From the NCBI RefSeq assembly GCF_030848565.1, contig NZ_JAVDDV010000007.1, forward strand, positions 124,001 to 188,000: a stretch of 64,000 bases of DNA. Direction: 5' to 3'. A program made the translations under genes and the position numbers. This DNA comes from Natronolimnohabitans sp. A-GB9 (GTDB taxonomy: Archaea > Halobacteriota > Halobacteria > Halobacteriales > Natrialbaceae). Shown one piece after another: positions 9,546 through 36,032 of this stretch. Below the pieces are notes generated by a model. It searched no databases and was not told the DNA's origin. It saw only the letters and a list, made by a program, of their open reading frames with translations. The stretch's first letter is position 1; each line of letters begins with the position of its first letter.

Positions 9546-10154
9546 TTACCGTTCTGTTCTGGACGTCGTGGCGCTTTCTCCCGCTCGAGTCTCGAGGGCG
9601 CCCGCGATGGCCCCGCCGCCTCCGGCGAACACGAGCGGATAGACGATCCCGGCGAGGAAGACAGCCGGCAGGAGATCCGGCGCGCCGGTCGCGCCGGCGA
9701 TGGTCACTTCAAAGAGGAACGCGCCGGCAAGCGACGCCACCAGGTAGCCGGGGAGGACCGTCAGCTCGACGGTCGCTCCGCGAGCCGGCGCAGCTATTCG
9801 CTGGTACTTCGTGAGTGCGAAGCCGCCCGCCAGCAACGTCACGATCGGGACGAGGTACAGCAGCGCTGCGAACCCCTCCTCGCCACCGACGAACGACGTG
9901 GTGTGACTGCCGACGATCGGCAAGTCACGAAAGACGGTGTTGGCGAAATGAGCGTTGTAGAACACCCAGCCGACCATCTCGTACGTCGCCGGCTCTCCCT
10001 CGAACGCCTCGACGAAGCGCTGTAGCGGCGAATCACGGACGTCCGGCGCGACGACGATGTAGGTGATCGCGTACCCCAACAGCCACGTCACGAGACCGAC
10101 GGCAGCGCCCGCAGCGACCGGCAGGTCGGTAGCCTGGGCAGAACTCGAGCTCAT
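9546..10154 (-). CDS. Multi-pass membrane protein, haloarchaeal (DUF7978-like)
   Basis: The product has 202 residues and about five predicted transmembrane segments (AAGAAVGLVTWLLGYAITY, LLYLVPIVTLLAGGFAL, LPGYLVASLAGAFLF, AVFLAGIVYPLVFAGGGGAI). An external loop contains EMVGWVFYNAHFANT. This FYNAHF pattern resembles the haloarchaeal family DUF7978, recalled from memory. No catalytic motif is seen and the function is unknown. The start MSSSS is preferred to the upstream extension to 10223, which lacks conservation-like composition. Confidence 0.65.
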   Translation of the reverse strand: MSSSSAQATDLPVAAGAAVGLVTWLLGYAITYIVVAPDVRDSPLQRFVEAFEGEPATYEMVGWVFYNAHFANTVFRDLPIVGSHTTSFVGGEEGFAALLYLVPIVTLLAGGFALTKYQRIAAPARGATVELTVLPGYLVASLAGAFLFEVTIAGATGAPDLLPAVFLAGIVYPLVFAGGGGAIAGALETRAGESATTSRTER

Positions 10155-10281
10155 TACCGTGACGTACGGTCTCGCGGACGTTAACGGTACAGGAACGAGC
10201 GCTGTCAATCGTGAGTCGGTCACCCGTCAGATGGCCGGGATGGCGATCCCCGCAAGCGGTCACCGACGGCTACGTCAACTG

Positions 10282-10303
10282 CCACGGGCACTGTGGCCCG
10301 TGG
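10282..10303. terminator. GC-rich hairpin downstream of npdG
   Basis: CCACGGGC (10282-10289) pairs perfectly with GCCCGTGG (10296-10303) across a six-base loop. It lies 16 bases past the npdG stop on the minus strand. It could be a 3'-end or transcript-stability element. No U-tract follows. Confidence 0.35.
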
Positions 10304-10318
10304 AATCCGCCTCACAAC

Positions 10319-10987
10319 CTACTTGAACTTCACACCGACGTCGTGCAGGTCGTCGTTGTACTTCGCGATGTTGATGACCAGCGGGGTGACGCTCTCGACT
10401 TCGCTGGCGTTAGCGAGCGGGCCGACGTCGAGCGCGCGCAGCCCCTCGATTTCGGTTGCCAGGTTCCGGACGGTCGTCTTGGCGTCGTCGTCGTCCGCGA
10501 CCAGCAGGGTATCGAGCTCGAGGTCGGTGTCCAGATCCGAGAGCGCGTCGGCCGCGAGGTTGTGGAACGCGCCGACGACGGGGACCGCGTCCGGAGCCCG
10601 TTCGGCGACGAGTTCGGTTACGCTGCCGGTCCCTGGCGGGTGGTAGTGAAGGCCGTCTTCGTCACCCTGCATGCCGACCGCAGGCGTAACGAGGATCGTG
10701 TCCGAATCGAGGCTGTCCGCGACCGCGTCGACCGTGTCGGCGACGTGGTACGGCGGCACGCTGAGGACGACGACGTCGGCCCGGTCGGCCGCCATCTCGT
10801 TTGCAAAGCCCTTGATATTGGCTTCGACGCCACGCTCCTCGAGTTCGGCCTCGTAGCTCTCGACTGCGTCCCGTGCTTTCTCGGGATCGCGCGAGCCGAT
10901 GAGGATCTCGTGGTCCGTATCGCGAGCAAAACGCAGGGCAAGTCCCTGTCCGATATCACCGGTTCCGCCGAGTAGTGCGATGCGCAT
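10319..10987 (-). CDS. npdG: F420H2:NADP oxidoreductase (NADPH-dependent F420 reductase)
   Basis: The enzyme moves hydride between coenzyme F420 and NADP in the cytoplasm. The 222-residue protein starts directly with the Rossmann dinucleotide motif ALLGGTGDIGQGLA (residues 4-17), followed by the NADP-phosphate-binding IGSRDPEKA. VVVLSVPPYHVADTV and TPAVGMQG follow, and the VVGAFHNLAADAL block of the F420-contacting region comes next. The length and motifs match archaeal Fno/NpdG. It is a single gene with a hairpin downstream. Confidence 0.9.
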   Translation of the reverse strand: MRIALLGGTGDIGQGLALRFARDTDHEILIGSRDPEKARDAVESYEAELEERGVEANIKGFANEMAADRADVVVLSVPPYHVADTVDAVADSLDSDTILVTPAVGMQGDEDGLHYHPPGTGSVTELVAERAPDAVPVVGAFHNLAADALSDLDTDLELDTLLVADDDDAKTTVRNLATEIEGLRALDVGPLANASEVESVTPLVINIAKYNDDLHDVGVKFK

Positions 10988-11116
10988 ACACTGGCTTCGG
11001 GACGGAATCCGAATAAAAGGGGTGGAGAGTGGCCGATCTCGCCGGATTTTCGACCAGCGAGCTGTCAGTTACCCCGCTTCATGTGTAACGTCCTGTCTAA
11101 CCGACAGCAATCCGTC

Positions 11117-11374
11117 TCAGGGCGCGTCCTCCTCTTCCGGATTCATCGCTGCGCCCAGTTCGCTGTCGTAGGCGTCCCGCTCTTTGACCTCACGGATCCG
11201 TTGTTCGAGTCGGTCCTCGAGTTCCCGCCGTCGCTGTTCGTCGACGTCCGCGGCCGTCGAGAGGTCCTCGAGATCCTGGCGTGCCGTTTGCAGCACGGAG
11301 ACGGCCTCCTCGGTCTCGAGGTCGGTCGCACGATCGAGACTCCGTTCGACGTCCTCGAGTGTGGTCTCGGTCAT
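11117..11374 (-). CDS. Small acidic coiled-coil protein, haloarchaeal
   Basis: The 85 residues are mostly helical and charged, with a heptad-like run from LEDVERSLDRATDLETEEA through DLEDLSTAADVDEQRRREL to EDRLEQRIREVKERDAYDSE. No cysteine, membrane segment or known motif is seen. Similar small proteins are common in haloarchaea, but the function is unknown. ATG 11374 is preferred to a TTG at 11377. It is divergent from the UspA gene. Confidence 0.6.
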   Translation of the reverse strand: MTETTLEDVERSLDRATDLETEEAVSVLQTARQDLEDLSTAADVDEQRRRELEDRLEQRIREVKERDAYDSELGAAMNPEEEDAP

Positions 11375-11463
11375 CAAACGGGCTTCGACCGCGAGCGTCC
11401 TGAAAGCTGGCCCGTCATGGGCGGGTCGGGGGTCGGCGGCGACGAATCTGACGACCCCCCGTC

Positions 11464-25374: not shown

Positions 25375-25440
25375 ATACTGATTACTGTACCGATGTCCCG
25401 ACGAAACCACGATCTCCCGACGAGCATACTAGTCCGGGTC
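25375..25440. repeat. Partial palindromic element, P4-like
   Basis: ATACTGATTACTGTACCGAT followed by GTCCCGACG matches the left end of the P4 element at 36032 over about 25 bp. The remainder is diverged. It lies between the EMC6-like operon and the stop of the large surface protein. Confidence 0.5.
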
Positions 25441-28400
25441 AGCCGGCGCTAACAGCGTCGATTGCGATATCGATCGCTGTTTCGGTCGAAATCTCGCCGT
25501 CACTACCTGCCTCTCCAAATCGACTCTCTAGATTGGCTTCCTCGATCTCGATCTCCGCTGAATCCTCTCTATCCTGACTTTGAACCGTAAGTTCACTGGT
25601 CCCAGCGTCGTCGATGCTGGTATCCCACTCGAGTGTGATCTGCTCGTCATCGTCTTCCTCCAGGAGACTCTCGAGCGTTACTTCCTTTGTATCGACAGTT
25701 CGATTGTCGGCCGTAAGCGTAATCTGCTGTGTCTCGGTCGACTCTATTCTGTCCTGGTATCGGCTGGTGATCGTCGCAGAGACTGTCGCGTCCTCACCAG
25801 CAGTCACGTTCTCCTCGACGTCGTCGATCTCGACCTCGAAGATACCCTCCGCCTCGAGTTCCCAGGTGAACCGTGGATAGTCGTCGGGAATCGCAATCCA
25901 GGGGCCACCCTCTTCTTCGAATTTGAGGTTCCCCATCCGTCCATCCTGGTTCACGTCGATACCGGTCATCTCGTCTTTACTCCGTCCGTTCCAGTCGAGT
26001 GTGGGGTCCGGCGCACCCCAGTCGACGTCGTTGACGCCGTAAGGCTCTTCGGTGTTTCGCCAGTAGACGCTCTCAGCGAACGTATCGCCTTGGGTACTCT
26101 CACGCCAACTACCCAGGACCGTTCCAACGACCGCACCGGTCGCGTCGTCGAATCCCTCCGCGCTGGTGATCGTATACATCTGTTCGAACGTGGAGTCCCG
26201 ATAGGACGACGTCCCAATGAGTCCACCTGCGTGACTCCGATCCGGTGGGCTGCTGAACCCGTACCCGTTATACTTCTCCCCGTCGGCGATTACCGTCATG
26301 TTCTGTGTGTAGCCGACGGACACTTCGGTCTGGAACGTCGACCGACCGACCAAGCCACCGATTCCTTCACCGTTCATACCGTCTCTGTTCGGCCCACCGA
26401 TGACGGTCCCTTCCGCGACGAGTTCGTTGTCGAGACTGGCGTGGACGCCGTCACCGATTAGCCCACCGACGAGTTGCTCTTCGGCCTCCACTCTGCCTTC
26501 ACTCCGTGACTGGATCACTTCCCCGCCGGCCTGTCCGACGAGTGCTCCGACGTGTTGTCGTCCGTGGACATCTACGTCCGCCAGCCTGACGTTCTCAATC
26601 GTCGAACCGGAGCCGATCGGATCGACGTTCGTCGTGTGGCCAGTTGCACCGAACAGTCCAACGAACCGCTCGTCCGGCCGGTCGATATACAATCCATCAA
26701 TCAGATGGCCGTTACCGTCGAACGTTCCCTTGAACGAGCCACTGGAAGTCCCATCGTCTACGTCGCTGTTAGCGTATTCGTTACCGTCCTGGCCGATCGG
26801 TTCGAATCCAGCACCGTCGCTCCAGAACTCCGTTCCGTGGGCGTCGATATTATCGACCAATTCGTAGTGGGCCTCGAGGTCGTGATCGTCGATACACTGG
26901 AGTTCGTCGACGGTACTCACTTGGTACGGATCGTCACTCGTACCACTTCCCTCGTAGTTGATCTCACTGCAGACAGGACCGTCGCGCTCGAGTACAACGA
27001 CGGTTTCCATCTCGTCGTCTACGACATCGTTTGCCTCGTCGTAGACCTCGGCCGTAACCCGGTGAGTGATCTCATCGTCGTCAGTCTCGTACTCGAAATC
27101 TACCGTTCCACCCCTCCAGTCATTATTGCCATACTCGATGGTCTGGATCTCGTCGCCGTCCGAATCCACTAATCGAGCAACGTAGTCGTCCGAATCGCCA
27201 CTGGCTCTGAGGACATCGGCTTCGATATCCACAGTCTGCCCCTGTTTAATCGGCTCCTCGACATCGAGATCGACTAGTTCGATATACTCGATTAGGTTGT
27301 CAGCGTCTGTCGTACTACTATCCGTCTCCGTCGTGATCGTTACCTGATCGTTCAGTCCCGGCTCTTCGACAGCACCCCACTGGAGTTCGGTTGTGCCGGT
27401 TTCGCCATCATCGAGTTCGACTGCCTCGATATCGACTACCTCCCCATCGAATCCCTCGAGTCCGACGAATTGCTGGTCGGTAACCGATCCTTCGTTCGTA
27501 ATCTCGACATCGGCTGTTAACGGCTCACCGGGCTTGACCGGATCGTTGAACTCGATATCATCGATAGTAAACGTCGGCTCGTCATCGACGACGATGAACG
27601 TCCCTTGTTCATCTAACGTGTCCCCTCCAGGGTCGGTCTTAACATCGTACTGATACTCGTTTCCAGGTTCGACACCAATGGTGTTTCCACCGTTGCCTGT
27701 TCGGAAAAAGTGATTTCCACCTTCCCACTCACTTTGATCATCCGTTCGTATCTTTTCACCCGACTCGATCGCCGCTTTCGACGTTATCTCGCGTTCCTCG
27801 ATCAGATCACCCGACTCATCACGGATCGAAAGAGTAGCAGTAACTGTCTCTTCGGAGTCGCCGTCGTTCCTCAGTGTAGTATTGATATGGAAATCAGTAC
27901 CATCTTCGACGACGTTGTCGGTGATCGTGTGTGGTTCCCCCTCACTGTGCGGAGTGAGACCGTTATCGTCCTCAACCAGGAAATATGGCTGCGACTGTGG
28001 ATCACCGAAGCCGTTTATTTTGACGACGACGGCATCTTCACCCAGCTCAGTCGGTCCGTCTACAGTGATATCCCACTCGTCGACGTCCGCTTTCTCATCA
28101 CTGAAGTGCTGTGCCCATCCTTCAGCATACGTGCTTTCGATCCTGAGAGCAAGATGATCTCCAGTGGGGTTTTCCTTTACTTGCTCGAGATCCTCAGCCG
28201 CCTCCATCGCAGTCTCGGGATTGTTTCGTATCTGTGTGGATGATTTCTCATCGGTCCCACTGGTGATCTGCATGAGATCCAGTTCGAGAGTGCCATCAGA
28301 ATCAAACCCTGTCTCCGGCGGGGATTCGATTCTGACTCCAGAGTCAGTTTGCTCCCAGATCGCACCACCTTGATGAGCGATCGTCCGGTCGTCGAGTTCG

Positions 28401-28774
28401 TACTCGAGTGCACCGAGAGTCACGGAATCCCCCGAACGGGTCTCCGATGGATTCTCTGAATCGTTGTACCAAGCGACCTCGAGCTCGCCGTCCTCGACGA
28501 CGGACAGGTCGGCGTCGGGTGGCACCTCGAGCGGTTGCGGATCGTCCGAAATCGTCGCCGTCGCGAGCGACTGATCGGTCTGGCTCATATACGTCACGGC
28601 ACGCTCCCGTTCGCTTTCGCTTTGTAATGCGTCGAACAGGGGTCCGGCAGCGACGAAAACCAGCATCGCGCCGAGGATCACCATCGCAAAGAGCAACACC
28701 AGTCCGAGTATCGGCGCAGCTGCACGGTCTTCGGAGTCCCCACCCCGTTCTTCGGGACGCTCCCACGACTTCAT
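25439..28774 (-). CDS. Giant pilin-anchored surface protein with CARDB-like and GLUG repeats
   Basis: The 1,111 residues start with a short charged leader, then a pilin-like hydrophobic helix APILGLVLLFAMVILGAM (about 20-45). This resembles the N-terminal domain of archaeal type IV pilin/DUF7289 proteins. The rest is extracellular and very acidic. It includes several Ig/CARDB-like stretches with DVEITNEGSVTDQQFV- and DVEEPIKQGQTVDIEADV-type sequences (about 300-600). From about residue 605 it has GSGTSDDPYQVSTVDELQ and a string of GLUG motifs (FVGLFGATG, VGALVGQAG, VGGLIGDG, IGGLVGRS, AGGLIGTSS) to about 900. A final CARDB-like domain follows. GC content is visibly lower than in the neighbours. 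The leaderless start is supported by a TATA box. Confidence 0.82.
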   Translation of the reverse strand: MKSWERPEERGGDSEDRAAAPILGLVLLFAMVILGAMLVFVAAGPLFDALQSESERERAVTYMSQTDQSLATATISDDPQPLEVPPDADLSVVEDGELEVAWYNDSENPSETRSGDSVTLGALEYELDDRTIAHQGGAIWEQTDSGVRIESPPETGFDSDGTLELDLMQITSGTDEKSSTQIRNNPETAMEAAEDLEQVKENPTGDHLALRIESTYAEGWAQHFSDEKADVDEWDITVDGPTELGEDAVVVKINGFGDPQSQPYFLVEDDNGLTPHSEGEPHTITDNVVEDGTDFHINTTLRNDGDSEETVTATLSIRDESGDLIEEREITSKAAIESGEKIRTDDQSEWEGGNHFFRTGNGGNTIGVEPGNEYQYDVKTDPGGDTLDEQGTFIVVDDEPTFTIDDIEFNDPVKPGEPLTADVEITNEGSVTDQQFVGLEGFDGEVVDIEAVELDDGETGTTELQWGAVEEPGLNDQVTITTETDSSTTDADNLIEYIELVDLDVEEPIKQGQTVDIEADVLRASGDSDDYVARLVDSDGDEIQTIEYGNNDWRGGTVDFEYETDDDEITHRVTAEVYDEANDVVDDEMETVVVLERDGPVCSEINYEGSGTSDDPYQVSTVDELQCIDDHDLEAHYELVDNIDAHGTEFWSDGAGFEPIGQDGNEYANSDVDDGTSSGSFKGTFDGNGHLIDGLYIDRPDERFVGLFGATGHTTNVDPIGSGSTIENVRLADVDVHGRQHVGALVGQAGGEVIQSRSEGRVEAEEQLVGGLIGDGVHASLDNELVAEGTVIGGPNRDGMNGEGIGGLVGRSTFQTEVSVGYTQNMTVIADGEKYNGYGFSSPPDRSHAGGLIGTSSYRDSTFEQMYTITSAEGFDDATGAVVGTVLGSWRESTQGDTFAESVYWRNTEEPYGVNDVDWGAPDPTLDWNGRSKDEMTGIDVNQDGRMGNLKFEEEGGPWIAIPDDYPRFTWELEAEGIFEVEIDDVEENVTAGEDATVSATITSRYQDRIESTETQQITLTADNRTVDTKEVTLESLLEEDDDEQITLEWDTSIDDAGTSELTVQSQDREDSAEIEIEEANLESRFGEAGSDGEISTETAIDIAIDAVSAG

Positions 28775-29017: not shown

Positions 29018-29563
29018 TCAATCCTCGAGACACTCGATCTCGAGTTGTCGCTCGAGTTCGATCGTCACCTCGTCGTCGCTGGCGATGACCGAAATCGAGA
29101 CTGTCGCCGACCGTGACTCTTGATCGCCGGATCCGAAGAACCCACTCGCTGGACAGCGGAAGTCGCCTTTTGCGACGCCTAATCCCTCGTCGTGTTCGAC
29201 TCGAAGTCCGTCGCCGCCAGTGATGTCGTCGTTGTCCGACTCGATCGAGACGTCGTCGATTGTCAACCCGCCGTCGGGGGTGTTGTCCTCGAGGGTGAGC
29301 AGCTCTCGATCGTTGTATTCGTAGTCGCCACAGAGACCGAAAAAGCAGCCACCACCATCGTCGGCGTCGTCACTGTCCAACTCGAGCGTTCGATCGTCGA
29401 GTTCGTCGTCGTACTCGAGTCCGAGATACGCGTCCTCGTCGTCGGCCGTCTGGACCCCGACTCCCCGATCGGCAACGAGCGAGTCGAACGCACCGCTCGG
29501 TGCGACGACGAGCAGCGCGCCGACGAGTAGCAGTCCAGCACCGAGATACGTGAGCGATCGCAT
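29018..29563 (-). CDS. DUF1102-like exported surface protein A
   Basis: The 181 residues have an N-terminal hydrophobic signal (YLGAGLLLVGALLVVAPSGAF). The hallmark LVADRGVGVQTADDEDAYLG follows directly and is shared with the proteins at 30241 and 31472 (pattern ADRxVxVxTAxDxxAYLxLE). The mature part is Asp-rich with cysteines in GGCFFGLCGD, FRCPAS and IECLED that could form two disulfides. The form is like small camelysin/TasA-type beta-sandwich subunits. It lies 20 bp downstream of the membrane-anchored wHTH gene on the same strand, which suggests one operon. Its function is inferred only. Confidence 0.72.
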   Translation of the reverse strand: MRSLTYLGAGLLLVGALLVVAPSGAFDSLVADRGVGVQTADDEDAYLGLEYDDELDDRTLELDSDDADDGGGCFFGLCGDYEYNDRELLTLEDNTPDGGLTIDDVSIESDNDDITGGDGLRVEHDEGLGVAKGDFRCPASGFFGSGDQESRSATVSISVIASDDEVTIELERQLEIECLED

Positions 29564-29583: not shown

Positions 29584-30120
29584 TTATGGTGGTTTTTCCA
29601 TCTCACCCAGACGCATCCGTCGGCTCTGTACCACGTGCACGATCGCCGACACCGCGAACAGCGCGAACACGAGCGTCGCCCAGCCGAGTTCGGGTACCGT
29701 CTCGGTCGGCACGACCTCGAGCCACAGTCCAGCCATCACAATCGCCGCGAGCACCGAGAGGCCGAGGTAGTACAGCCCCCACGGAATCGAGTTCTCCGGG
29801 ACGACGTCGAGGTAGACCTCGAGTTGGCTCGCCTCGTCGGTGAGCTCGACGGTTCGGTCGTCGAACTCGATCATGTCCGCACGCTCGAGCGTGGGCAGGT
29901 GTTGCTGCTGGAGCGCAGTGTAGACGCGCTTGCGCTCGCTCGAGGTTAGTTCCTCGATCTCCTTGTCGAGTTCCCAGGCGGCGACGTGTTCGGCGAGGTC
30001 GCCGAGTTCGACGGGTTCGTCCTCGCGTTTGCAGTAGTGGATGGCGTACCGACGCCGATGGTTACTCAGCAGGTCGAAAATCTCCCCGCGACCTGGCCGT
30101 GTCTCACCCTGTGTCCCCAT
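29584..30120 (-). CDS. Membrane-anchored winged-helix regulator (DUF7344-like)
   Basis: The 178 residues have an N-terminal winged helix beginning EIFDLLSNHRRRYAIHYC and continuing DLAEHVAAWELDKE. SSERKRVYTALQQQHLPTLE follows, then ADMIEFDDRTVELTDEA, the typical haloarchaeal DUF7344-type HTH. Two transmembrane helices come next (WGLYYLGLSVLAAIVMAGLW, WATLVFALFAVSAIVHVV) and a short basic tail. The protein would bind DNA while tethered to the membrane. It precedes the DUF1102-like gene 29018-29563 and is likely a regulator of the surface island (inference). ATG 30120 is chosen on domain start. Confidence 0.78.
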   Translation of the reverse strand: MGTQGETRPGRGEIFDLLSNHRRRYAIHYCKREDEPVELGDLAEHVAAWELDKEIEELTSSERKRVYTALQQQHLPTLERADMIEFDDRTVELTDEASQLEVYLDVVPENSIPWGLYYLGLSVLAAIVMAGLWLEVVPTETVPELGWATLVFALFAVSAIVHVVQSRRMRLGEMEKPP

Positions 30121-30240
30121 TGAAACCCGTACTGGATGTTCCTGATTTGGGATCGATAAGTATTCTGGCCAATTCCGGTCGGCTGGGAACACGAGCCGAT
30201 CGACTGACTCTCCACCGACGGTCGGTGTCTCGAGACAAGG

Positions 30241-31068
30241 CTAACACTGGACGCCATCGACGTCGGTCTGCTCGTCCGAAACCGTGCCGCTGACGTCCGC
30301 GTTGTTCCCGATCTCGACCGATCCACAGGCTGTCACGTCGCCGTCGATTTCGGCGTTGTTCCCGATCGTGACGTCCCCGCCAGCGACGATATCACCACTG
30401 ACGAGGTTGTTCGAGACCGTGATATCGCCCTGGGAGACGATCTCTCCGACGTTCGCATTGTTGTCGACGGTCACCGAGCCGCCACTGGAGATCGTCCCAT
30501 CGACGGCAACGTTGTTGTCGACTGTGACGTCGCCGCCAGTGGTGACGTCGCCGTCTTCGTCGGTCGAAATCTCGAGGGGGTCGTCCGTCCCACACGTCAC
30601 AGGGACGAACGCGGCCGTCGTTCGCGTCGCGTCGACGCTCGAGGACGTGGCCGACGCGACGAACTCCAGTTCGACCTGGTAGGCACCGTCGACCGTTCCC
30701 GCGTCGGTACACGCGAGTTCCACGTCGAACGTGCCAGTCTCGCTTCCCTGCTGAACCGTCGCCTCGAGCGACGACGCCGTCGCGTCGCCGTCGCCAGAGA
30801 GGCCAACGACGGAGGCGTCGATATCGTCCTGCTCGAGCCCGCCGAGGCCGTCGGTCAGCGTGTAGACGACCGTAGTCTCCGTCGGCGAGTCGATAGCAGC
30901 CGACGACGAGCGATCCTCGAGACCGAGGTAGGCCTCCGAGTCAGGGGCGGTCTCGACGCTCACGCCGCGATCGGCGGCGATCGTCCCGAATCCGAAGGTC
31001 GGCCCGGCCATGACTACCGCTCCGAGGACGATTAACCCGATCGCGACGACTGAAAGTATCCGTGACAT
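30241..31068 (-). CDS. DUF1102-like exported protein B with bactofilin-like beta-solenoid repeats
   Basis: The 275-residue protein has a signal helix (LSVVAIGLIVLGAVVMAGP). The DUF1102 hallmark AADRGVSVETAPDSEAYLG follows at 31-49, then a beta-rich domain to about 165. From 178 to 266 there are five repeats of 17-19 residues: GGDVTVDNNVAVDG, GGSVTVDNNANVGE, GDITVSNNLVSGD, GDVTIGNNAEIDGD and GSVEIGNNADVSG. This is the pattern of polymer-forming bactofilin-type right-handed beta-helices. Cys120, 159, 248 and 275 may form disulfides. A role as a self-assembling cell-surface subunit is inferred. It is divergent from the third DUF1102 gene at 31472. Confidence 0.78.
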   Translation of the reverse strand: MSRILSVVAIGLIVLGAVVMAGPTFGFGTIAADRGVSVETAPDSEAYLGLEDRSSSAAIDSPTETTVVYTLTDGLGGLEQDDIDASVVGLSGDGDATASSLEATVQQGSETGTFDVELACTDAGTVDGAYQVELEFVASATSSSVDATRTTAAFVPVTCGTDDPLEISTDEDGDVTTGGDVTVDNNVAVDGTISSGGSVTVDNNANVGEIVSQGDITVSNNLVSGDIVAGGDVTIGNNAEIDGDVTACGSVEIGNNADVSGTVSDEQTDVDGVQC

Positions 31069-31471
31069 GTAGGGATAGGAGATATTCCGTACAAAGACTA
31101 CGGTGTGTGGACGTATAAGATCACGGTACTGTTCAAGAATGACATACAATGGAGCGCGACGCCGGGTGGGATATGACAACGTGGCCGGTCGTGACAGTCG
31201 TCGCGAGCGTGATGGATGTGACAGTGACTCGATCCACCGTGTGACTCGGATACATGCGTATTGATATCTATGTGTGTTCCAGGAACCGGCGTTTTCGGCA
31301 GTTCAGGCCGGGCTTGAAGCCGGTATGGATTGCCCTGTAGCGAGTATTATCAGGTCTGTAGAGTATCTTGGCACTCAATACGAAGTGGGTGGCGCTCCAA
31401 GGGTGGAGTAAGAACCGCGGCCCGGACCCCACGGGTGAGGGTCACGGCGCGGTTAGATGGAGATCACAAAC
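31069..31471. promoter_or_regulatory. Divergent regulatory region with structured leader
   Basis: This 403-bp spacer has no gene. Two hairpins lie just upstream of the rightward gene. CTCCA/TGGAG is at 31395-31408. AACCGCG (31413-31419) pairs with CGCGGTT (31448-31454) and encloses GACCC/GGGTC (31425-31429, 31439-31443). A TATA-like GAGTATTATC near 31341 would give a leader of about 100 nt. CTTATACG on the minus strand near 31112 may serve the leftward gene. Confidence 0.5.
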
Positions 31472-32023
31472 ATGAGCATGAACCGACGCAATGTGTTAGT
31501 TGGATTGGGTACGATCGTCGCGGGCGGTGGCGCTGCACTGGGGACGGGCGCGTTCAGTAGCGTGGAAGCCGATCGAGACGTGACCGTCGAGACTGCGGGT
31601 GACGGGAGTGCGTACCTCGAGATGGAAGGTGACGATGACTACGTGACTGACGGTGGCGGTGATGACGATACACTGGAACTCGATCTCGGCGGACCTGACG
31701 GTGACAGCGGTTTCAACCGGGATGCAACCACCGTCGTTGAAGGAATCGTCACGCTACGGAACAATGCAGCAGACGGTACAGATATCGAAGTCGGATTCGG
31801 AGAGACAGGTGACTTAGATGACTCGACACAGGTCACGGTAAACGATGGCGATGGGAACGTTGCGGATGTGGAGTTCTACTTCGACGATCTCGATGATGGG
31901 ACTACACCAACTGTCGAAGACAATGATGAGGCACACCTCAACGCCAAAATTGAGGTCAATAGTGACACTGATATAGACGACTCAGCAGAGATAACGATCG
32001 TCGCCGAAGAGACAGCAGACTGA
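31472..32023 (+). CDS. DUF1102-like exported protein C (SipW-type/Tat-like signal)
   Basis: The 183 residues begin MNRRNVLVGLGTIVAGGGA and continue LGTGAFSSVEADRDVTVET. The GTGAFSSVEADR segment is the signature of SipW-type signal peptides. The paired Arg also makes a Tat route possible. The mature protein is small and acidic, with beta-strand-like runs TVVEGIVTLRNNAADGTD and VADVEFYFDDLDDG, like camelysin/TasA subunits. GC content is lower than average. The start is ATG 31472, and ATG 31457 is an alternative. It opens a rightward series ending with the signal peptidase. Being the first cistron after a structured leader, it may be the major subunit. Confidence 0.78.
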   Translation: MSMNRRNVLVGLGTIVAGGGAALGTGAFSSVEADRDVTVETAGDGSAYLEMEGDDDYVTDGGGDDDTLELDLGGPDGDSGFNRDATTVVEGIVTLRNNAADGTDIEVGFGETGDLDDSTQVTVNDGDGNVADVEFYFDDLDDGTTPTVEDNDEAHLNAKIEVNSDTDIDDSAEITIVAEETAD

Positions 32024-32114: not shown

Positions 32115-33284
32115 GTGATCGCTCGACAGCCATCCACCAAGATCCTGCTTACTGCTGCGGCAGTCTGCTTTCTGTTCGGACTCGCAGTCCCGACAGTCGC
32201 GATCACGGTGGGTGAGGATTCAGCGAGCGACGACGTCGTCCTCGAGCCGACCTCCCAGTACGCCGTGGTCCACGACGACGAACTCCGCCTCGATCTCGAG
32301 GCGCTCAACGAGCGTGCAGTCACGCACACGGACGGTGTGTTCGCGATCACGGTCACCGACGACACTGTCGAGGCGGTCTGGCTCGAGAACGACGTCGACG
32401 GCCTCGAGTTCTACAGCACTGCCGATCCGACGACCGAGATTACCGACTCGAGCCCGCTCGAGCCGGCGGCGGGTGAGACGATCGCCGTCGGCGCCGCGGT
32501 CGATACGCGCATCGCCCAGCAGGGAACGGAGACGTTCTCGGTACACGTCGCCTACGAAGACGAGGACGGGAGCGACGGCGAGGACGATTCCGACGACGAC
32601 GAGCCGAAGGTCGTCGCCCTCGAGTCACTGGCGGTCGGCGAGTCGACAGTCGCGGTCGGCGACTCGGTGGTCGTGAACGCGACCTACCGCAATCACGGCT
32701 CGGAGACGAAACAGACGACGGCGGCGTTGGTCGTCGACGGAACCATCGTCGACACCGAGACGGTCGACCTGGAGCCCGATACCACCGAGACGGTTACGTT
32801 CGAGCGGTCGATGCAGTGGCCCGGGACGTACGAAGTCGGCGTCGATGGCGCGGCAAGCGAGTCGGTGACCGTCGAGGGGCCGCCAGTCGACGTCCTCGAG
32901 GCCGACGTCACCGAGACCGAACTCACGGCCGGTGGAGTCGGGACGGTCGAAGCGACGGTGTCGAACCCGACCGATCGGACGGTCGAACGCACCCTCGAGC
33001 TCGCGGTCGACGACATCGTCGTCGAGACGCGAACGGTGTCGATCGAGCCGAACGACGAGCGGACGGTCGCCTTCGAGCGACAGTTCGACGAGGCAGGGAC
33101 GTACGACGTCGCAGTCAGCGGCGTCACGGCCGGTTCGGTGACCGTCTCGGAGCCCGATCCCGTCTCCGTCGAGACCCGCGAGCTCTCGGCGGCGGCGACG
33201 GCAGCGCTCGCCCCGCCGATGGCGATGGGGCTGTTGTGTCTATCCATCGCCGCGAACCGACGCTGGGCGCTGGTGTCGACGTGA
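32115..33284 (+). CDS. Exported CARDB-type surface protein with C-terminal anchor
   Basis: The 389-residue protein has a signal helix (ILLTAAAVCFLFGLAVPTVA). A DUF1102-like first domain (about 35-160) is followed by an Asp/Ser linker. Two CARDB-like Ig domains come next: VALESLAVGESTVAVGDSVV (about 172-255) and VLEADVTETELTAGGVGTVE (about 260-345). A C-terminal hydrophobic helix near ALAPPMAMGLLCLSIAA ends in Arg. It would sit on the cell surface and could hold or cap a fibre (inference). The start is GTG 32115. It lies between DUF1102 protein C and the signal peptidase on one strand. Confidence 0.72.
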   Translation: MIARQPSTKILLTAAAVCFLFGLAVPTVAITVGEDSASDDVVLEPTSQYAVVHDDELRLDLEALNERAVTHTDGVFAITVTDDTVEAVWLENDVDGLEFYSTADPTTEITDSSPLEPAAGETIAVGAAVDTRIAQQGTETFSVHVAYEDEDGSDGEDDSDDDEPKVVALESLAVGESTVAVGDSVVVNATYRNHGSETKQTTAALVVDGTIVDTETVDLEPDTTETVTFERSMQWPGTYEVGVDGAASESVTVEGPPVDVLEADVTETELTAGGVGTVEATVSNPTDRTVERTLELAVDDIVVETRTVSIEPNDERTVAFERQFDEAGTYDVAVSGVTAGSVTVSEPDPVSVETRELSAAATAALAPPMAMGLLCLSIAANRRWALVST

Positions 33285-33509: not shown

Positions 33510-34682
33510 ATGACGGGAGCGAGCCTGCTCAAACGAGCGCTGGGTCTGGTCGTCGCCCTCGTCATCGTCCTGTTGGTGGTCGGCCAACTCCTCGGCCAGC
33601 CGATTCTGCTTGGGTACGTCGCGACCGACAGCATGGAGCCGACGATGGCAGCCGGCGACGGCTTCGTCGCGATTCCGGACGTCGCGTCCGGTTCGGTCGA
33701 GGAAGGCGACGTCGTCGTCTTCGAGGCCCGAGACCTCCACGGCGGGGCGTTGACGACACATCGCGTGGTCGGTGAGACCGACGAGGGGTACGTCACTCGA
33801 GGGGACGCGAACCCCTTTACCGACCAGGACGGTGGAGAGCCACACGTCTCTGACAGCCAGATCGTCGCCACAGCCTTGCAGGTAAACGGCGAGGTCGTAA
33901 CGATCCCACACCTCGGGACGGCGATCATGGGCGTCCAGAGCGTCACGGAATCGGCTTACGGGACCGTCGCGTCGGTCGCCGGGATCACGACGACCACCGA
34001 TTCCGAGAGCCTCGGCGCCGTCCTGGTCGCGATCGGCGTCGCCCTGCTCGGGTTCGGGGCGTTGTTCGACCGTCTCGGACCCGGCCAGCGGGAACCCCGT
34101 CGCTCGCGCTCGCGTGAGAACGTGATCGCGTTCTGGACGGCATTGGGGCTGGTCTTGCTCGTGTTCGTCACGTTCGCGACCGCAGCGATGGTCGTCCCCG
34201 CTGGAACGGTCGAGTACGGACTCGTAAGCACCGATTCGCCAAGCGACGACCCGCAGGTACTCGAGCCGGGCGAGACCGGCGAACTGACCCGAACCGTCGA
34301 CAACGCGGGCTACCTGCCGATCGTGACCATCCACGAGACCGAACGCGACGACGTCGCCGTCGAGCCTGCGTCCCAGACGGTCGGACTCCGCTCGAGTAGC
34401 GAGGCGACGGTCTCGTTGACAGCGCCGGCAGAAACCGGGGAGTACACGCGCCACGTTAGCGAGTATCGGTATCTCGCGGTGCTCCCACCGTCGGTGCTCG
34501 TCTGGCTACACGGCGTGCACCCGCTGCTCGCGATCGCCGCTGTCAACGGTGTCATCGTCGGCGTTGCCGTCGCACTCGTGCTCGTCGTCTTCGGTCGCAA
34601 CGACCTTCGGTTGCGTTCGGCCGGCACTCACGTCCCGCTGTCGACGCGTCTCGAGCGAAAACTCAGAAAATGGCGAGAATGA
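33510..34682 (+). CDS. S26B signal peptidase I with extra membrane-ectodomain module
   Basis: This is an archaeal/ER-type signal peptidase. The catalytic set is Ser41 in TDSMEPTM, His84 in THRVVGE (in place of bacterial Lys), and Asp99 in VTRGDAN. Unlike a minimal enzyme of about 200 residues, it has 390. After two central helices (GAVLVAIGVALLGFGALF, FWTALGLVLLVFVTFATAAM) there is an external Ig-like domain with VLEPGETGELTRTVDNAGYL (about 235-330). A last helix, IAAVNGVIVGVAVALVLVV, follows. It stands beside DUF1102 and DUF5305 genes, suggesting a dedicated SipW-like processing enzyme for this island. Confidence 0.87.
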   Translation: MTGASLLKRALGLVVALVIVLLVVGQLLGQPILLGYVATDSMEPTMAAGDGFVAIPDVASGSVEEGDVVVFEARDLHGGALTTHRVVGETDEGYVTRGDANPFTDQDGGEPHVSDSQIVATALQVNGEVVTIPHLGTAIMGVQSVTESAYGTVASVAGITTTTDSESLGAVLVAIGVALLGFGALFDRLGPGQREPRRSRSRENVIAFWTALGLVLLVFVTFATAAMVVPAGTVEYGLVSTDSPSDDPQVLEPGETGELTRTVDNAGYLPIVTIHETERDDVAVEPASQTVGLRSSSEATVSLTAPAETGEYTRHVSEYRYLAVLPPSVLVWLHGVHPLLAIAAVNGVIVGVAVALVLVVFGRNDLRLRSAGTHVPLSTRLERKLRKWRE

Positions 34683-34757: not shown

Positions 34758-36032
34758 GTGTCAGTCGGTCGGCCCGTGGGGGCGGGTCGACTCGGAATTT
34801 GGGGGAGGGTCGTCGGCTCGCCGAAGTCGACCGGGGGTGGTCGGGTCGTGATCGATAGCCCACGCCTCGAGTTGTTGCTCGCCAGACACGGCCGGACGAT
34901 CGCGATCGCACTGGTCGCCGTCGGCGTACTGGCGCTTCTCGCTTCGGGGTGGGCTGTCGCGAATCCCGCGACGACGACGACCCCACAGTACGCGGAGGAA
35001 CGGGTCTCGAGCGACGTCGACACGAGCACCGTCGTCGTCCAGGACGGGACGCTCTGGAACGAGGGTGATCGCCTCGAGAACAGTGAGGTCTACCTGCTAA
35101 ACGACTCGCCGGAGTTGACCGTCGAGCCGACGACTCGGCTGCAAAACGAGACCGACGGGACGCCAATCGAAGACGGTGACGTCCACCACGAACTGACGCT
35201 TCGGTTCGAAGCGACCCGAAACGACGCGACGTTCTGGAACGAGACACACACTTTGATCGACGAATCGACGTCCCTCGAGAACGGTGTCGCGAGTTCGGAG
35301 ACGACGGTCGACGTCGAGTCCTACCGGGACCGACAACAGCAACTCGAGGCCGAACTCTCCGGTGTCGGCTCGGTCGACCTCGTCCTCGAGTTCCGCACCG
35401 AGTACGACACCGGAACGACCGGGAACGTACAGACGGCGTCGACACCGTTTCGGGTGACCGACGACGCCTACTGGCTCGAGGAGTCGCTTTCCGTGTCGGA
35501 CGAGCACACACACAGAACGGGTCTCGAGGAGACGACCGAGTCGCGAAGCCTCGCGATGATCGCAGGCCTCTCGCTGGTGGGAACGCTGTCGCTGGCCGCC
35601 GGGGCGGTCGTCGCTCGCCGGGCGCCGATCGACGAGGAAGCCGCCCGCCGTGCCGTCCACGAACGGCGCTACGCGGAGTGGATCTCGCGTGGCTCGATCC
35701 CAATGTGGATCGGCGACTACCACGTCTCGTTGGACACCCTAGAGGACGTCGTCGACGTCGCGATCGACACGAACGAGCGCGTCGTCCACGACGAGCAGCG
35801 GGGGCTGTTCGCCGTCGTCACCGACGGCGTCGTCTACTACTACAGCGACCGCGGCCGCTGGGAGGAGACCGCCTGGCCGGAGATGAACCTCTCGGACCAG
35901 TCTACGACGGCCGCCGACGCAGACGGTGACGTGCCGATCTCGCCCGATGATCTGGATCTGGAGGGCAGCGCCGAGTTCGACGACCCCGAGGACGGATTCG
36001 ACGGGGATGAGGACGTCTGGAAGAAACTCTGA
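34758..36032 (+). CDS. DUF5305 family membrane protein
   Basis: The product has up to 424 residues, with a first transmembrane helix (TIAIALVAVGVLALLASGWAV). A beta-rich external domain of about 220 residues includes the ELTVEPTTRLQNETDG, VDVESYRDRQQQLEAELSG and VDLVLEFRTEYDTG blocks. A second helix follows (LAMIAGLSLVGTLSLAAGAVV), then a cytoplasmic part with DTLEDVVDVAIDTNERVVHD and GVVYYYSDRGRW. This is the pattern of DUF5305, which recurs near archaeal SipW-type signal peptidases. The start could instead be GTG 34848, giving 394 residues. The stop TGA leads directly into the P4 palindromic element. Confidence 0.8.
   Translation: MSVGRPVGAGRLGIWGRVVGSPKSTGGGRVVIDSPRLELLLARHGRTIAIALVAVGVLALLASGWAVANPATTTTPQYAEERVSSDVDTSTVVVQDGTLWNEGDRLENSEVYLLNDSPELTVEPTTRLQNETDGTPIEDGDVHHELTLRFEATRNDATFWNETHTLIDESTSLENGVASSETTVDVESYRDRQQQLEAELSGVGSVDLVLEFRTEYDTGTTGNVQTASTPFRVTDDAYWLEESLSVSDEHTHRTGLEETTESRSLAMIAGLSLVGTLSLAAGAVVARRAPIDEEAARRAVHERRYAEWISRGSIPMWIGDYHVSLDTLEDVVDVAIDTNERVVHDEQRGLFAVVTDGVVYYYSDRGRWEETAWPEMNLSDQSTTAADADGDVPISPDDLDLEGSAEFDDPEDGFDGDEDVWKKL

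Follow-up and report, generated by a model that had tools for sequence, protein, structure and literature searches.

The analysed window comprises 64,000 nt of Natronolimnohabitans sp. A-GB9 (contig NZ_JAVDDV010000007.1, positions 124,001-188,000 of the forward strand). On its minus strand, at positions 30241..31068, lies a gene for a 275-aa protein, predicted to be secreted, that joins a TafC-type N-domain to a bactofilin-fold solenoid, as delineated from the open reading frame, profile searches, structural models and orthologues. All its parts are encoded on the same strand. The N-terminus, MSRILSVVAIGLIVLGAVVMAGPTFGF, resembles a secretion signal, so that the secretion proposed in the preliminary description stands as a prediction; this signal-peptide-like segment spans residues 1-27 (30988..31068), and its first 20 residues contain no RR. 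It is followed by the conserved segment FGTIAADRGVSVETAPDSEA (residues 27-46; 30931..30990), a beta-sandwich N-domain with conserved Cys120 and Cys159 (residues 48-159; 30592..30927; alignment, model and profiles), a five-coil beta-solenoid (residues 177-264; 30277..30540; PF04519, coil model and structure alignment), and a C-terminal tail with a Cys248/Cys275 pair (30244..30327). The full-length AlphaFold2 model (seven orthologues) consists of a signal helix, the beta-sandwich at residues 48-159, and short regular strands at residues 175-253. Residues 15-46, which include the segment disordered in this monomer model, have pLDDT values below 50 despite their high conservation.

Directly downstream, at 29584..30192 on the minus strand, is the gene of a winged-helix-like DUF7344 protein, a probable regulator (PF24035, 99.8 bits) and a conserved neighbour of the TafC slot. 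Two further minus-strand genes encode a small secreted TafE/TafC-like subunit with the same N-terminal segment (29018..29563; TafE 25.3 and TafC 20.8 bits, each falling far short of its cut-off), and a DUF7289 protein (25439..28774) whose N-terminus is type IV pilin-like and whose CARDB and GLUG matches are below cut-off; the latter is syntenic in several relatives. The plus-strand gene at 31457..32023, divergent from the solenoid gene, encodes a TafA/TafE-like pilin with a twin-arginine signal; its scores of 62.9 (TafE) and 52.5 bits (TafA) lie below the cut-offs, and it matches PDB entry 9p0a ('Pilin', three chains) with an E-value of 5e-22. On the same strand there follow a secreted or membrane protein with CARDB domains assigned by Pfam (32115..33284), syntenic in relatives, an archaeal signal peptidase I (33510..34682; TIGR02228, 55.1 bits vs the cut-off of 51.85) that is SipW-like, with a SipW score of 30 bits, below cut-off, and a DUF5305 membrane protein (34758..36032; PF17231, 159 bits). 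Judging by these gene contents, namely the TafA-like pilin with a Tat signal, the SipW-like peptidase and DUF7344, the region can be considered a Tat-fimbria-type locus. Tat-fimbriae (tafi) composed of TafA are known from haloarchaea (Galeva et al., iScience 2025, as cited in PMC12687288).

The N-domain was assigned by its relation to TafC. Positions 10-140 of the NCBIfam TafC profile (NF052521) match residues 9-151 with 26.9 bits, and since the equivalog cut-off is 410, the protein is not a TafC by the NCBI rule; a search of its own genome with this profile gave no match at E <= 1e-12. The N-terminal part of the profile was nevertheless matched in all ten slot members scanned, hhalign paired the N-domain profile with full-length TafC at a probability of 97.1 (E 6.8e-11), and both Cys120 and Cys159 are invariant in the 16 alignment rows. 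A fold search with the N-domain returned only generic Ig/cadherin-like folds (Z ~8); no TasA-like or thread pilin was among these matches, which does not speak against kinship. The TafC profile itself divides, positions 1-145 and 145-370 being matched on different proteins. In five of five full-length TafCs scanned, Laminin_G_3 follows the N-domain, and a Pfam scan of the 275-aa protein recognised no Laminin_G-like C-terminal module. The protein thus shares with TafC the N-domain (positions ~1-145), the Cys pair and a locus with a TafA-like pilin, a SipW-like peptidase and DUF7344, but differs in the bactofilin solenoid that replaces Laminin_G_3, in its signal lacking the twin arginine and in a score far under the equivalog cut-off.

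The preliminary description had proposed a solenoid fused to a fibre-type domain, which is borne out with that domain identified as the N-terminal domain of the fimbrial protein TafC; its name for the domain, DUF1102, had to be abandoned. The protein is not matched by PF06510 even at E <= 1, and a search of the whole genome with this profile picks out four other genes and not 30241..31068. The DUF1102 genes of this genome have a similar signal and an ADR-type start. Three DUF1102/TafA-like genes of the genome form a cluster of their own (G000:C34:42898-44713), at least two of them with twin-arginine-like signals and two with PF06510 matches over the cut-off.

The C-terminal part is built of tandem units: TGGDVTVDNNVAVDGTIS (residues 177-194, 18 aa), SGGSVTVDNNANVGEIV (residues 195-211, 17 aa), SQGDITVSNNLVSGDIV (residues 212-228, 17 aa), AGGDVTIGNNAEIDGDVT (residues 229-246, 18 aa) and ACGSVEIGNNADVSGTVS (residues 247-264, 18 aa), with a partial coil ahead of these five full ones. 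Five repeats of 17-19 residues at positions 178-266 had been described previously; the five tandem units are real, while their boundaries and lengths are corrected to 177-264 and 17-18 aa. Each coil has one Asn-Asn pair, and every pair is invariant in the seven orthologues. At an offset of 18 the self-identity is 0.32, a value matched by none of 20,000 residue shuffles, and a cyclic coil model scores 174, whereas three shuffled sequences reach at most 23. The bactofilin profile PF04519 matches residues 169-263 with 32.1 bits, above its cut-off of 27.9 (E 1.4e-7). The model of residues 160-275 (pLDDT 82.4, pTM 0.75) has as its top three structure alignments the three bactofilins of the PDB: 6rib_A, the filament form from Thermus (Z 15.3, rmsd 1.4 Å over 97 residues), 2n3d, BacA (Z 12.6), and 6ria, also from Thermus (Z 12.0). 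The C-terminal domains of adhesins (Z ~11) and then ice-binding proteins (Z ~9) come next. Foldseek by itself did not decide the matter: with either model it returned no match at E <= 0.001, and among the bactofilins 2n3d came third and 6rib sixth. A left-handed hexapeptide (LbH) solenoid was rejected, phmmer having matched GlmU and VioB only at E 0.015 or worse, and left-handed hexapeptide enzymes aligning to the model at an rmsd of ~10 vs 1.4 for bactofilins. Profile and modelled structure, the two checks that had been proposed for the bactofilin-like solenoid, agree in its favour and support a right-handed beta-solenoid of bactofilin type.

A bactofilin is a rod of stacked coils that serves bacteria as an intracellular skeleton. 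With the bactofilins of known structure (PF04519; BacA 2n3d, Thermus 6rib and 6ria) and the halofilins of haloarchaea the protein shares the right-handed beta-helix and coils of 17-18 residues, and the whole core can be aligned; it differs from them in a predicted extracellular location, a fimbrial N-domain, a C-terminal Cys pair and a number of coils that varies in its family from 5 to ~27. From the signal-peptide-like N-terminus and the fimbria locus, the intracellular, membrane-associated cytoskeletal role of bactofilins is not predicted for it. The same genome encodes a second extracytoplasmic bactofilin-like solenoid (L033; G000:C34:86176-86409), in which a signal peptide and the solenoid are followed by hydrophobic, membrane-helix-like stretches, and a third (L035; G000:C2:133228) that lacks a signal peptide and resembles cytoplasmic haloarchaeal bactofilins. 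Other secreted haloarchaeal solenoids have no TafC domain; lipobox-like signals occur in L017 and in a tandem pair of L025, and a twin-arginine-like one in L014. A type IV pilin-like N-terminus precedes bactofilin-like repeats located mid-protein in L026:316-2943, which shows the solenoid joined to a second kind of pilus as well.

The number of coils, obtained with the cyclic coil model, which replaced a noisy repeat regex, and trimmed at the N-domain end in L089, L091, L094 and the first protein of L115, where the model start points overran into the N-domain, is not constant. The preliminary description had counted an unconserved repeat number in orthologues against the fold. The number is conserved at five in five of the seven close orthologues; the other two have six, and the wider family ranges from 5 to ~27 (maximum in L099). 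Two strains of Natrinema hispanicum differ by one 18-codon unit, and the extra coil in L044, one of the two orthologues with six, is a recent tandem copy with 50 of its 54 bases identical. We take this variation to reflect a tunable length and do not count it against the fold. Each of the seven pairs compared has a dN/dS ratio below 1 in both halves of the protein, and in six pairs the ratio of the solenoid is lower than that of the N-domain. One Cys in the last coil and one in the tail are both present or both absent in 21 of 21 solenoid proteins (present in 18, one of them of unusual layout); their spacing is 16-18 residues, equal to one coil, and 27 in the clade of the gene described here. 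Because these terminal residues occur as a pair or not at all, Cys248/Cys275 and their equivalents probably form a disulfide that caps the solenoid end.

The fusion, for which the preliminary description had proposed a survey, is found in other haloarchaea, both in orthologues and in other members of the slot. Six orthologues of 58-66% identity, from Natronorubrum and Natrinema, retain the order of the locus. A scan of genome contigs with a narrow alignment and a single pattern found nine loci, a number that is no census; in the class survey the N-domain was present in 97 of 145 genomes. SipW, TafA-like and DUF7344 genes lie within ~8 kb in 36 of the 47 N-domain loci that were fully read, and six loci with a TafC above the curated cut-off, five of which supplied the full-length TafCs scanned for Laminin_G_3, have the same neighbours. 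Slot members of other loci carry bactofilin or FapA-like solenoids, PKD, Laminin_G, or no module recognised by Pfam. On the N-domain tree nine changes between solenoid and no solenoid were counted, of which strongly supported branches force four or more, the total being approximate since the weak solenoids of L081 and L083 (58.6 and 45.8) were scored as 'no'. Given the varied C-terminal modules and these changes, the TafC slot is therefore modular, and in this lineage the lectin-like module was replaced by a bactofilin-fold rod. A viral origin was rejected, viral contigs containing no relative. The parts are of kinds already known, and what we rate as new is the exchange of a lectin-like module for a bactofilin fold on a fimbrial subunit; no such case was found in the literature searched, which did not extend to the primary descriptions of tafi and halofilins.

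Canonical TafCs carry RR, and so do 46 of 50 TafA-like neighbours in the form of a twin arginine; its absence here, judged from the signal sequences, suggests an export route different from both. At the position of F27, 58 of 63 family members have Phe and one more has Tyr (regex and hand check). Phe at P2' of the cleavage site is given in PMC10269814 as a mark of TasA, a substrate of SipW. By analogy, and because this residue is nearly invariant, processing at a SipW-type site with F27 at P2' appears plausible. The segment of residues 27-46 is common to the TafA-like subunits, and a homologous stretch is present in the solved pilin 9p0a. It is a candidate donor strand, since TapA, the minor partner of TasA, has a TasA-like N-terminal strand able to prime assembly (PMC9674648). 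The likeness to the TasA/TapA/SipW system of Bacillus and to archaeal bundling pili comprises a dedicated SipW-like peptidase encoded in the locus, a Phe in the predicted P2' position, a conserved N-terminal segment that may serve as donor strand, and a minor subunit beside a major pilin; on the other side, no sequence match to TasA was found here and the TafA-like neighbour has a Tat signal. Neither TapA nor TasA is known to have a solenoid module.

On balance, the gene probably encodes a TafC-slot minor subunit of a Tat-fimbria-like (TasA/SipW-like) fibre, with the lectin-like module replaced by a bactofilin-fold solenoid. The protein would be exported via its non-Tat signal and cut before Gly26-Phe27 by the SipW-like peptidase encoded in the locus. 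The conserved ADRxVxV segment, freed by this cut, would then dock into the fimbria as a donor strand. The beta-sandwich domain would form a joint, from which the solenoid would project as a short, rigid five-coil rod held by internal packing, the Asn ladder and the putative Cys248-Cys275 disulfide. Such a rod may serve for adhesion or as a spacer at the tip or base of the fibre, and entire coils would be gained or lost to set its length. Its exchange with a lectin-like module suggests display, and a capped rod displayed by a modular minor subunit is most likely what the gene encodes, rather than a self-polymerising extracellular bactofilin.

Polymerisation was weighed in two forms. Neighbouring solenoids could stack end to end (C-C or N-N) in the manner of cytoplasmic bactofilins, cross-linking fimbriae or forming a second polymer, an extracellular one as the preliminary description had in mind; the core has the full bactofilin length and its close match is to the filament form 6rib, coil positions are conserved, and the solenoid is mostly the more constrained half. 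Self-polymerisation may occur, but only ~8 residues link the Ig-like domain to the first coil in the full-length model, which appears to block N-to-N stacking, and the last coil is tied to the tail by the probable disulfide in most members. The short linker and the cap would hinder the stacking used in bactofilin filaments; the number of coils varies, moreover, and homologous slots carry lectin-like, PKD and other modules, so that we consider this arrangement unlikely. Still less likely is that the exported bactofilin within the fimbria polymerises through its free end and ties the fimbriae into a network, whose spacing would then be set by the coil number.

A position where the fibre meets the cell, at which the protein would serve as base anchor or length terminator, with the solenoid lying against the S-layer or exopolysaccharide, and would nucleate TafA as TapA does TasA, falls between these two forms in probability. 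The priming ability of TapA as a minor component and the N-terminal segment shared with the TafA-type pilin favour it, but the lectin-like module that can take its place makes more sense at a tip, and the present findings fit either end. Six of the 47 loci encode an N-domain protein without SipW, TafA-like or DUF7344 neighbours, and solenoids are secreted without the N-domain elsewhere, with lipobox or Tat signals or, in the same genome, with membrane helices. These cases would fit a secreted or surface protein that stands on its own and just happens to lie beside fimbria genes, its N-domain being a generic SipW substrate domain; the strong synteny across genera and the slot shared with full-length TafC make this the least probable reading.

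If the minor-subunit reading is correct, a cytoskeletal fold has found a second, extracellular use as an interchangeable component of a type of archaeal surface fibre that was described only recently. The TafC slot combines one N-domain with many display heads, lectin-like, PKD or solenoid, and offers a testable handle on how haloarchaea vary the binding of their fibres and the length of the display rod. It is also worth mentioning that a slot paralogue, L043:9505-10128, ends in a GGGNNGVGN repeat tail only, with no folded module. The slot proteins of L102, L103, L104, L107 and L111 have a different repetitive C-terminal half, possibly another type of solenoid head; for some of them Pfam gives matches that are haemagglutinin-repeat-like or beta-helical. 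Genome G025 encodes two solenoid slot proteins (L115:7785-8726 and 9770-11416) of ~9 and ~17 coils that flank a DUF7344 gene, one with the Cys cap and the other without it.
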